Shown: positions 5,620-20,327 of the stretch, one piece after another
How positions within the stretch are numbered: the first letter of the stretch is position 1
Layout of the letters: each line of letters begins with the position of its first letter
IMG/VR virus record: IMGVR_UViG_3300043409_000702
Span: 1-30,156 of that record
DNA from: a virus
Length of the DNA: 30,156 nucleotides
Strand: one strand, 5' to 3'
Program-made: the position numbers and the translations under genes
Notes under the pieces: model-generated
Database searches by the model: none
Seen by the model: only the letters and a program-made list of their open reading frames with translations
Told to the model about the DNA's origin: nothing

Positions 5620-7007
5620 GCCATCACCTCGCTTTTTACCCAATCAGGAAACCACAAGTCTAGTGGCCGATTATACACAACGCGCGTTTCTGCGGTTGAT
5701 TGTGCTTGTTTCATTGCAGTTGCCATCCTTCTTTTCATTTCGTCGTGTTTGTTTGACTTTACGTTGATCACGTCCCAAATTGCCTTTTCAGTATCCGCGA
5801 CAACAATATCGTTGCGCACTTGTTCTGTCTGCCCAAACCGATGCGAACGACGCACGGCCTGATAGTGTTGCTCATAGCTGTAGCTGATAGAAGCGAATAC
5901 GGCATGGGCACAGTGTTGCCAGTTTACGCCAAAACCTGCAAGTTTAGGCTTAGTGACAATGACCCTAAACTTACCGTCAACAAATCCAAGAAGCAAGTCT
6001 TCTTTTTGATCTGGCGTCATTGATCCTGTAAGTTCGCGGGCGTCCGGGATAAGTTTTGCGAGTGATGCGCTTTCCTCGTTACTTTCACACCATACAGTGA
6101 CGGGCTTACCATGTGTTGCAAGTTCCGCCGCGAGTGCTACCCTGTCGCGCATGGTTAGGCGTTTTTCGGCATGAAACGAAGTTGCGGATAGTTCAGGAAT
6201 ACGGAATAGCATTCCATCGGTTCCGGTTGATCGGTCAGCATCGACAGTGTGTAGTGTGCGAATAATTTCTGGCAGAATGTATCCTGTATCGTCGCCACCA
6301 AGATCGGAAGGTAGTGTCGCGCAACGTGACCAAGACGCTACCCATTGCCAGAAGTCCTCAACAGCATGGCCTTTCAGTCGCCAATCTTGGGAAGCTGTTG
6401 ATGTATCGTTAATGAACCATTTAGAAAGCATCTCTTGTTGACGCATGACGCCTAGAAATTCGGCATGATTGCCAAGTTCCATATGGTCGTTTGGCGACGG
6501 TGTAGCAGTTGCGGCCATGCGGTATGGCGTATCAATAAACATGTCCATAAGCGTCTTGCGCGTCTTACCGCCAAACGACTTCAAGATCGAGGATTCATCC
6601 AAAATAATCGCGCCAAACTTAGAAGGATCAAGCTTGCCAACTCGGTCATAGTTCATGACCATAACACCATCGCCGACTTCTTCAGGCTCTTTGATCTGGC
6701 GCGCGTCAATACCGAATTTATTACCTTCGCGCACCATCTGGCCCGCAACTGCGAGTGGCGTTAGGATTAGTGACGGCAAGCCAGTTTCTTCGGCGCACTG
6801 TCGGGCAAACTCTAACTCAATGAACGATTTTCCTAGGCCTGTATCGAGGAACATTGCCGACTTGCCTTTGTTCAAGGCATATTCCAGCGCGTTTACCTGA
6901 TGCACCTTAGCGCGGGAATTGATAGGCTTAGGTGCAAACCCACTGGGTTCAGTTGTTGTGGCGCGTGACGCAATAAACCGCCTATATTCTTGAATGTCGA
7001 TTGTCAT
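5616..7007 (-). CDS. SNF2-type SF2 helicase paired with the methyltransferase
   Basis: 463 aa. Motifs: Walker A DTGLGKS (55-61), motif II DESS (137-140), ATATPSPND (166-174) followed by a long conserved helix region, and motif VI QAVRRSHRFGQ in the C-terminal RecA lobe. The Arg-rich RSHRFGQ signature is typical of SNF2-family translocases. The ATG at 7007 has GAGGG upstream and a TTGACA promoter behind it. The gene overlaps the methyltransferase by 4 nt. SNF2 helicase plus methyltransferase pairs are known in phages and in defence systems such as DISARM; here there is no nuclease or PLD partner, so a DNA-modification or anti-restriction role is inferred only. Confidence 0.92.
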   Translation of the reverse strand: MTIDIQEYRRFIASRATTTEPSGFAPKPINSRAKVHQVNALEYALNKGKSAMFLDTGLGKSFIELEFARQCAEETGLPSLILTPLAVAGQMVREGNKFGIDARQIKEPEEVGDGVMVMNYDRVGKLDPSKFGAIILDESSILKSFGGKTRKTLMDMFIDTPYRMAATATPSPNDHMELGNHAEFLGVMRQQEMLSKWFINDTSTASQDWRLKGHAVEDFWQWVASWSRCATLPSDLGGDDTGYILPEIIRTLHTVDADRSTGTDGMLFRIPELSATSFHAEKRLTMRDRVALAAELATHGKPVTVWCESNEESASLAKLIPDARELTGSMTPDQKEDLLLGFVDGKFRVIVTKPKLAGFGVNWQHCAHAVFASISYSYEQHYQAVRRSHRFGQTEQVRNDIVVADTEKAIWDVINVKSNKHDEMKRRMATAMKQAQSTAETRVVYNRPLDLWFPDWVKSEVMA

Positions 7008-16320: not shown

Positions 16321-16448
16321 TACTTCACCTCTTTCAATACCTTACACATTGCCAAAATCATATCGGGGAAGTCGTCGCGCTTGAACAATGCCACTCGCTC
16401 ATAACCGCGCATGACGTGAATTTCATTGTTGATTAGGTGCCATGTCAT
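16320..16448 (-). CDS. Small unknown protein, 42 aa
   Basis: The ATG at 16448 overlaps the phosphoesterase stop (ATGA) and the TAA overlaps the next ATG (TAATG). MTWHLINNEIHVMRGYERVA then LFKRDDFPDMILAMCKVL is a compact alpha/beta-like peptide; the final codons carry the ribosome site of the next gene. It fills the 125-nt gap exactly, which is the strongest argument for it. Confidence 0.65.
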   Translation of the reverse strand: MTWHLINNEIHVMRGYERVALFKRDDFPDMILAMCKVLKEVK

Positions 16449-17536
16449 CGCTTGATTGCCTCATGCCCGGTTAGAATTAACCCCTTCTTATCGTCAAACG
16501 TGTAAGCCGTCAAAGCGCGGCGGCTGGAAAACTGAGAACCGTATTCATCAGGCGGGCAGAACGCGCGCAAGGAATGCCACTTAATCCCGCCTAGGTCTTT
16601 GGTGCTATCGTGGTGAATATGCCCTGTCAGAACGTGCCTATCGCGCGTATCCGACCAGAACGGGCAAACGTCCGCGATATGACTTACAAGACGTTGTGGT
16701 GGTGATTTATCGCCATGATGCGCGGCAAGTAACACAGTGCCGTGCTGGATCATGAATAGGTCTTTTGGGTTTTTTTCAATCTCGATGTTTTCAGCCAACC
16801 TATATCGTTCAGCAATGGCGAAAATCAATACAAGATGCGAGTGAATGTCATGATTTCCTCGCAAAACTCGAATTGTAATGCGTCGATGTTTTTCGGCCAT
16901 TCTGTCGATTGTTTCGCAGATAACCTTGATTGCGGTATCAATGACTTTGAAGTGCCGACCATCAACATCTAGCTTGTGCTTTGATTGTGGCGTTTCTGAA
17001 CGTGTATCATCTGCATGTAGCGTATCACCACCAAGGATTAGAACGGCGTGATCACTGGCCGGGGTAATGGCGTCTAGACCATCGAAAGCCGCGCGCATAT
17101 CCGACACGGAATATGATAGATCATAATCATCCGCCCCGGTTTCTTTACCCCATGCCGCCATGCCGATGTGCCAATCCATTACAGGATAGACGGTCATTAG
17201 GTTTTGATTGCGCGCGGCAATTGGATTGGGCCGATACGCTGGAATATCGGTAAACGCATCCTTGACCAATTCAAGCACGTTAGCCGCATCAGCAACCGAT
17301 GGCCTGAGCAGAACACTATAACCCGGCTGTGTCTTATCCCAAACGACGCTAGGAACCATGTTAGTGCCGATAGCTGACATTGCGCGGGTTATTGCTGGAT
17401 CGACTGTAGCGCGGGCTTTGGCGCGTTTCCGCTTGGACCATGCGGCTTGCACTGTAATACCATGATGCGCGGCGTATTCGTTAACGTTGAATGACTTCTT
17501 TGGACTTGTTAGGTATTCTTCATTGTAATCAGTCAT
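16445..17536 (-). CDS. Calcineurin-like metallophosphoesterase with N-terminal HTH-like segment
   Basis: 363 aa. All five metal-binding blocks are present: D121-x-H123 (DWHIG), GGD (169-171), GNHD (227-230), H273 (AHHGD) and GHIH (305-308). Residues 17-42 (NVNEYAAHHGITVQ then AAWSKRKRAKAR) look like a helix-turn-helix with a basic arm. Mre11/SbcD-type nucleases share this catalytic fold, and phage relatives are thought to act on nucleic acid; here the DNA-binding-like N-terminus supports that, but no SbcC/Rad50 partner is present. ATGA overlaps on both sides place it in one operon with its neighbours. Confidence 0.92.
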   Translation of the reverse strand: MTDYNEEYLTSPKKSFNVNEYAAHHGITVQAAWSKRKRAKARATVDPAITRAMSAIGTNMVPSVVWDKTQPGYSVLLRPSVADAANVLELVKDAFTDIPAYRPNPIAARNQNLMTVYPVMDWHIGMAAWGKETGADDYDLSYSVSDMRAAFDGLDAITPASDHAVLILGGDTLHADDTRSETPQSKHKLDVDGRHFKVIDTAIKVICETIDRMAEKHRRITIRVLRGNHDIHSHLVLIFAIAERYRLAENIEIEKNPKDLFMIQHGTVLLAAHHGDKSPPQRLVSHIADVCPFWSDTRDRHVLTGHIHHDSTKDLGGIKWHSLRAFCPPDEYGSQFSSRRALTAYTFDDKKGLILTGHEAIKR

Positions 17537-18152: not shown

Positions 18153-18178
18153 AAACCCCGCCTAAAAAGACGGGGTTT
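18153..18178 (-). terminator. Leftward terminator after the tRNA region
   Basis: Stem AAACCCCG / CGGGGTTT with a 10-nt loop, 6 nt beyond the tRNA-Trp CCA. On the minus strand a TTTTTC run follows, so it ends the tRNA transcript. The 135 nt from here to 18017 hold an AT-rich TAAAAT box (18059-18064, minus strand) that could be a -10 for the exported-protein operon, without a good -35. Confidence 0.8.
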
Positions 18179-18184
18179 AATAAT

Positions 18185-18258
18185 TGGCGAGGGTGCTAGG
18201 AATCGAACATAGGCTTTCAGTTTTGGAGACTGATGTGATACCACTTCACTACACCGAC
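18185..18258 (-). tRNA. tRNA-Trp (CCA), imperfect acceptor stem
   Basis: 74 nt including an encoded CCA. D stem GTGA/TCAC with loop AGTGGTA; anticodon arm TCAGT-CTCCAAA-ACTGA gives anticodon CCA (Trp); T loop TTCGATT. The acceptor GTCGGTG / CACCCTC has adjacent T-T and C-C mismatches at 2:71 and 3:70, and the T stem has one mismatch (52:62). The fold is otherwise canonical. It may be a diverged or decaying tRNA. Confidence 0.8.
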
Positions 18259-18413
18259 TTAATTAAATACCGTTAGCCTTTGATACCCCAGATAGCGATT
18301 TAGCGTGTCGCCCCTAGACTTATATCCCGCGACGGATCAAGCGCGGTAGAAACGCAACTCAGGTTTTTCACCTATACCACAATACAGGTATTGCCAAGAC
18401 ACTTGCGCTTTTG

Positions 18414-18512
18414 TGTCCCCGCATTTGTGGTGGATTACATTTCCCGCCATTTTGGCTTAAATCGGGGTTAGCGATCTTAGGTCTAATGTAACCCGCCACA
18501 AATGCGGGGATT
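18414..18512. repeat. Long inverted repeat between tRNA elements
   Basis: Arms 18417-18441 and 18485-18509 (25 nt each) pair at 23 positions; one mismatch is a G-U in RNA on one strand. The core CCCCGCATTTGTGG is perfect. The loop is 43 nt. The surrounding 18259-18513 has no convincing gene; it also contains shorter hairpins (GTCGC/GCGAC at 18307-18333; GACAC/GTGTC near 18397-18416), so a structured RNA is possible. Confidence 0.85.
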
Positions 18513-18517
18513 TAGTT

Positions 18518-18602
18518 GACTGCGGGCAGGACTCGAACCTGCATCAAGGAATACCCGCAATGGGGCTGGCTTACCATTCACCAATTACATCACACCGCAG
18601 TC
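18518..18602 (-). ncRNA. tRNA-like element without a readable anticodon arm
   Basis: The ends pair as GACTGCGG / CCGCAGTC and a canonical T arm is present (GCAGG-TTCGAGT-CCTGC directly before the 3' acceptor strand). The 52 nt between acceptor and T arm do not form a normal D arm plus anticodon arm with T33 and purine 37; instead they fold as a long imperfect hairpin with GCCC/GGGT inside. CCA is not encoded. The length of about 84 nt would suit a class II tRNA, but I could not assign an anticodon. It could be a decayed tRNA, a tRNA mimic or a tRNA with an unusual core. Confidence 0.45.
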
Positions 18603-18629
18603 ATAGTTGACCGTCTTTCCGGTCTGTCA

Positions 18630-18697
18630 TCGGTTTGCAGGATATTCGAACTTCCTGCCAACGCCTACCCGGCGCATCATATGGGCCGCCCAACCGA
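18630..18697 (-). ncRNA. Second, weaker tRNA-like fold
   Basis: Ends TCGGTT / AACCGA pair over 6 bp; a T-arm-like hairpin GCAGGA...TCCTGC contains TTCGAA; a GCGCC/GGCGT hairpin sits at the anticodon-arm position. The loop sizes are not canonical. A 5-bp hairpin GACCG/CGGTC (18609-18624) separates it from the previous element. Reported as a possible tRNA remnant only. Confidence 0.2.
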
Positions 18698-18789
18698 AAG
18701 CCACGCTAGTAACCCGAAACGGTGCGCATTATTAAGAGGCGGAACGGGTATTGATTTCTTTGCGCGTTACAGTCGCGCCCCTGTTTAGT

Positions 18790-18852
18790 TTAAAGTACGC
18801 CGTTATGAACGAGGCCGAAAAGGAAAACTACGAGAACACCAACGATAGCCAT
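18790..18852 (-). CDS. 20-aa hydrophobic micropeptide
   Basis: ATG at 18852 is preceded by GGAGGG with 8 nt spacing, as strong as any ribosome site here, and by a TTGACA promoter. The product MAIVGVLVVFLFGLVHNGVL is almost entirely one transmembrane helix. It is read before the tRNA-like region on the same predicted transcript. It might be a leader peptide controlling the RNAs behind it, or a membrane-active peptide next to the lysis genes. Too short for homology. Confidence 0.5.
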   Translation of the reverse strand: MAIVGVLVVFLFGLVHNGVL

Positions 18853-19609: not shown

Positions 19610-19782
19610 GGTTTGCCAACTGGCGTAGTCGTCACCATCCGCAGCGCCATGTTAGACATAGCAAGCCCCAGCGTGAAGTATGGCAAGTATTGATCGGGAA
19701 TGATCGAAGTCCACTCTTGCAACTCGGCAATGGTGACGACGATTGAAAGCCCGTTTACAAGTAGAGTTTTCCAGCCCTTCAT
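19606..19782 (-). CDS. Small protein of lysis cluster, 58 aa
   Basis: The ATG at 19782 overlaps the endolysin stop (ATGA). MKGWKTLLVNGLSIVVTIAE then IIPDQYLPYFTLGLAMSNMA: two moderately hydrophobic segments (about 6-19 and 34-47) that may be membrane-associated. It recalls small proteins that accompany phage lysozymes and may tune the holin. Coupled genes on both sides support it. Confidence 0.75.
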   Translation of the reverse strand: MKGWKTLLVNGLSIVVTIAELQEWTSIIPDQYLPYFTLGLAMSNMALRMVTTTPVGKP

Positions 19783-20327
19783 TTCTTACCCCCAAACATG
19801 CGGAGAATAGCCGCGATAATCACCGCAAGCCAGTTGTTACCGGGTGGCGGCTTAGGTAGTGGCGCGGATGGTGCAAACGACTTAACAGGCGTTAGGAATA
19901 GCAGACGCTCATCTGCACGACGATTGCTAAGACCTTTGAGAACCTTGCCGCCAGCTTTATTCCATAGCAGGAACGCATCAGCCGCTTCTTTCTTATCGCC
20001 GCTATTGAATAGCCGCAACACACTAGACCGCTTAAATGCCGTCGGTCCGATATTGTAAGCCAAGGAAACCATAGCGCCGAACTCGTTTTCGTTAGCTAGG
20101 CCAGTTATTGACTTAGAAATGTTAGCCGCAAACTTGGTCACAGTGGCGTTAAGATACCCCAACGCCTGCGCTTCTGTGATACACATTCCCGGCCTAGGAT
20201 CAATGCCCACGCCCGCGTTTACAGTCGTGCCATAACCGATAGTCCAAACACCAACACTGTCTTGATAAGCCTTGGCGCGGAACCCTTCCCACTTCTTGAT
20301 TAGATTTAGCGATGCGTCATTTAGCAT
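19779..20327 (-). CDS. Endolysin, GH24 lysozyme with C-terminal membrane anchor
   Basis: 182 aa muramidase that cuts peptidoglycan at lysis. The T4-lysozyme catalytic triad spacing is kept: E14 (KKWEGF), D23 (YQDSVG) and T29 in VWTIGYGTT. Conserved MVSLAYNIG and the C-terminal lobe RRADERLLFL are present. After a Pro-rich linker (about 152-162) a hydrophobic stretch NNWLAVIIAAILRMF (164-178) followed by GGKK looks like a tail anchor, instead of the more familiar N-terminal SAR signal. No N-terminal signal is present, so export would rely on a holin or on that anchor. Confidence 0.93.
   Translation of the reverse strand: MLNDASLNLIKKWEGFRAKAYQDSVGVWTIGYGTTVNAGVGIDPRPGMCITEAQALGYLNATVTKFAANISKSITGLANENEFGAMVSLAYNIGPTAFKRSSVLRLFNSGDKKEAADAFLLWNKAGGKVLKGLSNRRADERLLFLTPVKSFAPSAPLPKPPPGNNWLAVIIAAILRMFGGKK

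Follow-up and report, generated by a model that had tools for sequence, protein, structure and literature searches.

tRNA-like elements as possible domains of a large modular non-coding RNA in a phage of uncultivated bacteria

Introduction

Several kinds of structured phage RNA are associated with tRNA genes. Phage tRNAs are sometimes found in the linker of GOLLD, and ROOL, a large ornate phage RNA, is often encoded near tRNA islands (PMC12286853); a pseudo-tRNA has been described inside a mycobacterial GOLLD gene (PMC6582537). Theta ribozymes, which are HDV-like, are pseudoknotted RNAs that also occur near phage tRNAs (PMC10879173).

Here we describe a non-coding locus in a 30,156-base virus record, the whole of which is referred to below as the window, from a phage of uncultivated bacteria. 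Like GOLLD (PMC12286853, PMC6582537), the locus would specify a large, structured RNA encoded close to phage tRNA genes, with a conserved 3' domain, a variable 5' part and tRNAs or pseudo-tRNAs inside. It differs in that it matches no GOLLD or other large-RNA model of Rfam 15, even in permissive mode, and in that its conserved domain is a short pseudoknot. GOLLD itself forms homo-oligomeric RNA nanocages. The likeness to ROOL is that of a large ornate phage RNA near tRNAs, again without an Rfam match. Combining a conserved domain with a tRNA-containing variable part in the vicinity of phage tRNAs, the array is GOLLD-like in concept, the nearest one available, and is not a member of the GOLLD family as defined by Rfam.

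Results

Organization of the array

The window encodes phage structural, replication and lysis proteins, with genes oriented inward from both ends. All features of interest belong to the minus strand and are flanked by an endolysin gene upstream (19779-20327) and an exonuclease gene downstream (16445-17536); here, positions 18153-18784 form a collinear array of structured modules that includes one ordinary tRNA-Trp gene. The features, listed in the direction of the minus strand, are as follows.

18790-18852, minus strand: short hydrophobic open reading frame of 20 amino acids, just upstream of the array
18762-18781, minus strand: first array module, hairpin GGGGCGCG…CGCGC, conserved in L006, L008, L009 and L011 and recognisable in L055
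18712-18749, minus strand: hairpin module ACCCG…CGGGT around TTCCGCCTCT/GCACCGTTT, present in L050 with AGCCG…CGGCT
18630-18697, minus strand: second, weaker tRNA-like fold (fold A), identified by its fold and a homologue in L010
18609-18629, minus strand: UGACA followed by the hairpin GACCG-GAAAGA-CGGTC, with compensatory changes
18604-18611, minus strand: upstream copy of GTCAACTA, the GTC of which is part of a neighbouring, separate hairpin
18517-18603, minus strand: tRNA-like element B (tRNA-like part 18518-18602), identified by Rfam, a mechanical search and homologues in L008, L010 and L011
18513-18520, minus strand: downstream copy of GTCAACTA, the GTC of which is part of the acceptor strand
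18416-18510, minus strand: long hairpin module, an inverted repeat with 26-nt arms and a variable loop
18261-18347, minus strand: pseudoknot domain, identified with a model built here and by covariation
18185-18258, minus strand: tRNA-Trp with a CCA anticodon and an encoded CCA end, called by ARAGORN and scoring 50.7 bits with the Rfam tRNA model
18153-18178, minus strand: intrinsic terminator that closes the array

The exonuclease adjoining the array is 72% identical to those of Sulfitobacter phages over 125 bases, and related contigs (denoted L with a number) were reached through this gene. The order of modules is common to the relatives, namely, the first hairpin, the tRNA-like elements (where present), the long hairpin and further hairpins, after which the array continues with the pseudoknot domain and/or tRNAs and, in several contigs, a terminator. 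The array in the window is predicted to fold more stably than dinucleotide shuffles (z −4.7), compared with z values of −1.1 to +1.8 for five control stretches of equal length on the same strand. Among the relatives, z ranges from −0.6 to −4.9, and the weak values of L009 (−0.6), L010 (−1.1), L051 (−1.4) and L008 (−1.6) count against the reading of the array as a large RNA.

At the place of the 20-amino-acid reading frame, the relatives encode hydrophobic peptides of about 33-35 amino acids. L026, a contig with a related exonuclease, has a different, unrelated-looking non-coding stretch in the same place (5700-6500), with a terminator-like hairpin at its end.

The pseudoknot domain

The pseudoknot domain consists of a hairpin, CCGCG[CUUGAUCCGU]CGCGG, the loop of which pairs with a downstream ACGGAUC. 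It was detected at 15 loci in viral contigs with E-values of 5e-5 or better, 12 of which were the set from which the model was built. In the first helix, three pairs are changed on both sides, and the covariation score was reached by none of 500 shuffles. The second helix is shortened in the window and in L010; in the window, four CCGU/ACGG pairs and a G-U pair are kept and two pairs are lost, so that the domain may be weakened there.

A theta ribozyme is defined by a nested double pseudoknot with P3 and a catalytic C in J4/2 (PMC10879173). The domain found here lacks P3/L3 between the P2 5' strand and the P1 3' strand; P3 is absent in 15 of the 15 pseudoknot sequences and there is no Rfam ribozyme match, so this candidate was rejected. 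A group I intron was likewise rejected, no convincing core being apparent by eye.

The domain is absent from Rfam 15, and a permissive search of that database (E up to 1-5) with the window and 19 relatives yielded only tRNAs and sub-threshold chance matches. Comparison of the domain and the arrays with 50,697 phage records and 72,556 plasmids produced no match beyond a tRNA-Met part and a 29-base chance match, and no matches came from a scan of bacterial genomes with the exonuclease alignment and the pseudoknot pattern. A search with the pattern TTTGTGGCGGGTTNCAT returned the known loci plus chance matches, and the matches to the pattern CGCGCTTGATCCGTCGCGG in L046, L047, L049 and L054, which are GC-rich and apparently coding, were set aside by context.

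The genomic contexts of the domain bear on one explanation of the whole locus. With its position behind the endolysin-side genes, on their strand, and a terminator at its end, the array might consist of cis-acting structures for processing or regulation within the 3' region of the lysis operon, in which case the hairpins and tRNA shapes would do no more than protect the end of the mRNA or have it cleaved. The pseudoknot domain is not confined to this setting: besides tRNA-bearing contigs (L028, L050, L051, L055 and L057), it is found in L045, L052, L053, L056 and L058, which have no called tRNA, just upstream of a small gene that resembles the terminase small subunit (named by eye from its translation). 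The array can further be argued to be more elaborate than such a role needs, and we consider this explanation highly improbable.

The tRNA-Trp gene and neighbouring modules

The tRNA-Trp gene forms a cloverleaf with a CCA anticodon and G73, with two mismatches in the acceptor stem and one in the T stem. The acceptor GTCGGTG/CACCCTC contains U·U at 2:71 and C·C at 3:70, in agreement with the original prediction of two adjacent acceptor mismatches in this tRNA. Its homologue in L008 is 85% identical (blastn) and has both acceptor mismatches, which are thus not fresh damage, although a comparison of two sequences is too small to prove selection for them. The window alone has a broken T-stem pair, 52:62, which is intact in L008. 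Because three pairs (13:22, 27:43 and 49:65) differ between the two sequences by compensatory changes on both sides, the gene evolves under selection for its fold.

Comparable changes are seen in the neighbouring modules. The UGACA-GAAAGA hairpin covaries among four contigs (the window, L010, L028 and L055); homologues of the long hairpin occur in eight relatives, and over 10 sequences four of its pairs have changed in both partners. Fold A, which had been proposed as a third, weaker fold, does fold as described, with an outer stem TCGGTT/AACCGA and a T-arm-like GCAGGA-GTTCGAAT-TCCTGC at 18637-18658, and its homologue in L010 keeps the T-arm-like stem via one compensatory pair.

Unusual tRNA genes are also present in the relatives. 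A tRNA-Tyr-like gene at L008:4268-4360 and about 860-951 of L027, not called by ARAGORN, has an acceptor GGAAGCC…GGCTTCC followed by ACCA, an anticodon arm with GTA, a CCCCAC/GTGGGG helix around the anticodon arm in place of the D arm, and a T-arm-like stem (AAGG/CCTT in L008, GAGG/CCTC in L027). The tRNA-Leu genes (TAG, TAA) at L008:4366-4525, L027:696-854 and L051:2073-2149 are 77-78 nt long, with a short variable region and no long class II arm. Genes for tRNA-Met are found at L050:2903-2976 and L055:9195-9268; in the former, acceptor pairs 1:72 and 2:71 are mismatched, which recalls initiator tRNA.

Element B: acceptor and T arm without a decoding part

Element B combines a perfect acceptor helix with a T arm (18526-18542) that has a TTCRA loop, and lacks both the D stem and the anticodon arm, as had been claimed for positions 18518-18602. 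Its closing stem, TGACTGCGG/CCGCAGTCA, comprises 9 bp and is thus longer than a tRNA acceptor; CCA is not encoded at the 3' end. ARAGORN makes no call, and the Rfam tRNA model gives 23.9 bits, short of its gathering score (29), aligning the acceptor and T arm alone and skipping the core, so that even a permissive covariance model finds no ordinary cloverleaf with an anticodon arm here. In a mechanical search for a 5-bp T stem, a TTCRA loop and a 7-bp acceptor, element B was the sole match in the window, compared with a chance rate of 0.05 matches per 60 kb of first-order random sequence.

Element B probably derives from a tRNA-Leu, judging from its D loop and core. Phage tRNA-Leu gives the best match to the D-loop stretch TGTGATGTAATTGG and the core length (z 4.8 and 4.2); most other tRNAs tested match less well, with the tRNA-Asn of L057 close at 4.1. 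The 52-nt core is of a length that fits class II tRNAs, and this, together with the D-loop match, is the ground for a tRNA origin. Element B shares with phage tRNA-Leu the D-loop signature TGTGATG(T/G)AATTGG and the class II core length, and differs from it in having no D stem, anticodon arm or CCA and an extended acceptor helix.

The tRNA-like domain of tmRNA has an acceptor and a T arm and a D loop without a D stem, and has no anticodon arm; element B shares all these traits. Nevertheless, tmRNA itself was rejected: there is no ARAGORN or Rfam call and no CCA end, and the 52-nt core has no room for a tag reading frame.

The direct copies reported to flank the element are indeed present, as GTCAACTA at 18513-18520 and 18604-18611, but the 8-bp repeat is partly a coincidence because the GTC in each copy belongs to a different structure; of this repeat, the relatives conserve AACTA only. 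A mobile cassette with a target-site duplication was rejected, the empty site in L006 not being an exact excision between the repeats.

Conservation of element B among relatives

Close copies of element B number four: that of the window and its positional homologues in L011 (4873-4955), L010 (2169-2250) and L008 (3948-4070); the element is absent from L006 and L009. Of the 31 arm positions, T-loop position 59 (G, A or T), which varies in ordinary tRNAs, is the single one at which any of the three homologues departs from the window. Against L010, one of the 31 arm positions differs, compared with 14 of the 52 core positions (Fisher p 0.007); against L011, the differences are 1/31 and 3/52, with no contrast between arms and core (p 1.0). 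In L008, the core has been replaced and is 40 nt longer.

These observations bear on the possibility, raised at the outset, that the locus is a decaying tRNA cluster, in which functionless pseudogenes would have been shuffled by recombination between phages. The resemblance of element B to tRNA-Leu, the gain and loss of modules among the relatives, the T-stem pair of tRNA-Trp broken in the window and the shortened second pseudoknot helix in the window and L010 all speak for decay. Yet the arms are kept in three homologues, with change confined to a naturally variable T-loop base, while the core mutates or is replaced, which disfavours decay in its simple form. The comparison with relatives further turned up the compensatory changes that had been suggested as a check, in tRNA-Trp, the neighbouring modules and the basal stem described below, with the arms of element B near-invariant. 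On both grounds, we regard decay as unlikely.

A basal stem with exchangeable cargo

L027 and L028 contain comparable elements with closing stems of 11-12 bp and class II-like D arms; the T stem of the L027 element shows compensatory differences. Closing stems that look like one and the same stem are found as TGACTGCGG…CCGCAGTCAACT in the window group, TGAGCGCGG…CCGCGCTCAACT in L028 and TGAGTGTGG…CCACACTCAACT in L050 and L051. This homologous-looking basal stem, TGANNGYGG…CCRCNNTCAACT, covaries over nine distinct sequences: 97.5% of the cells of the alignment are paired and nine cells are changed on both sides, compared with 2.9 in shuffles, values reached by none of 500 shuffles, with the qualification that the L050, L051 and L055 stems were collected by patterns that partly impose pairing. 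The contrast of the window group with L027 and L028 (positions 4:15 and 5:14) is free of this bias. The cargo within the stem is tRNA-like in the window group, L027 and L028, and is non-tRNA, with no T arm, in L050 (two copies) and L051.

In L028:2655-2880, two mutually exclusive stems are possible, in which the strand TGAGCGCGGTAG pairs with an upstream hairpin arm (TACCGC) or with a downstream CTACCGCGCTCA; L051 has a similar arrangement.

The original prediction also envisaged tRNA mimics with a charging or processing end and no decoding arm. Under such a scenario, host RNase P/Z would excise element B as a small, free tRNA-shaped RNA, for example, a decoy for tRNA-binding enzymes or nucleases. 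The shape is right, in that the decoding part has gone but the acceptor helix, the T loop TTCGA(N)TC and the GG of the D loop persist; the array also contains a genuine tRNA-Trp, and the L027 element, at 31.4 bits, even exceeds the threshold of the Rfam tRNA model. The charging end, however, is unsupported; judged by sequence, RNase P may still process the element. The helix extends beyond pair 1:72, and the tRNA-like elements of the window group and relatives encode no CCA, whereas all ordinary tRNAs examined in the array-bearing L008, L027, L028, L050 and L051 do (the more distant L057 has a tRNA-Asp without it). Given also the non-tRNA cargo enclosed elsewhere by the homologous-looking stem, a free mimic seems doubtful.

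Discussion

The modules, their conservation, covariation and interchangeability are observed directly; that they belong to a single RNA, expressed late and with a function of its own, is what we infer from them. The interpretation that we favour, with somewhat more confidence than doubt, is that tRNA-derived domains, probably from tRNA-Leu, have become part of a large, modular non-coding RNA of the phage, with tRNA-Trp and a terminator at its end. Positions 18153-18784 of the minus strand would be transcribed as one large structured RNA, and element B would be a former tRNA retained as an internal domain. Its coaxial stack of acceptor and T arm, with the elbow formed by the T loop and the D-loop GG, could serve as a rigid structural module, the anticodon part having turned into free, replaceable cargo; fold A probably represents another domain of this kind. 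If GOLLD is a guide, these domains might contribute to the assembly or filling of an RNA particle late in infection.

A free mimic or a dying gene fits less well than an internal structural domain of a larger RNA because the elbow and the closing stem are kept, the decoding part is free to change, CCA is missing, the helix is over-long and the cargo is exchanged for non-tRNA sequence. Arm conservation, covariation in the basal stem and the neighbouring modules, collinearity, the folding z and the pseudoknot loci support the domain reading. The small number of close copies of element B (four) and the lack of an arm/core contrast between the window and L011 count against it, as does the fact that RNase P likewise recognises the acceptor and T loop that are conserved here.

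More tentatively, the array could represent a new class of large phage RNA made of interchangeable modules, in which tRNAs minus the decoding arm act as structural joints of a particle or scaffold. If the domain reading is correct, the arrays would form a family that is compact, unrelated to the giant phage RNAs and built around a simple conserved domain, and in which steps from tRNA to non-tRNA cargo can be seen; it would make possible direct tests of whether RNAs like the giant ones carry, hide or use tRNAs, and would document tRNA genes becoming structural RNA domains within viruses.
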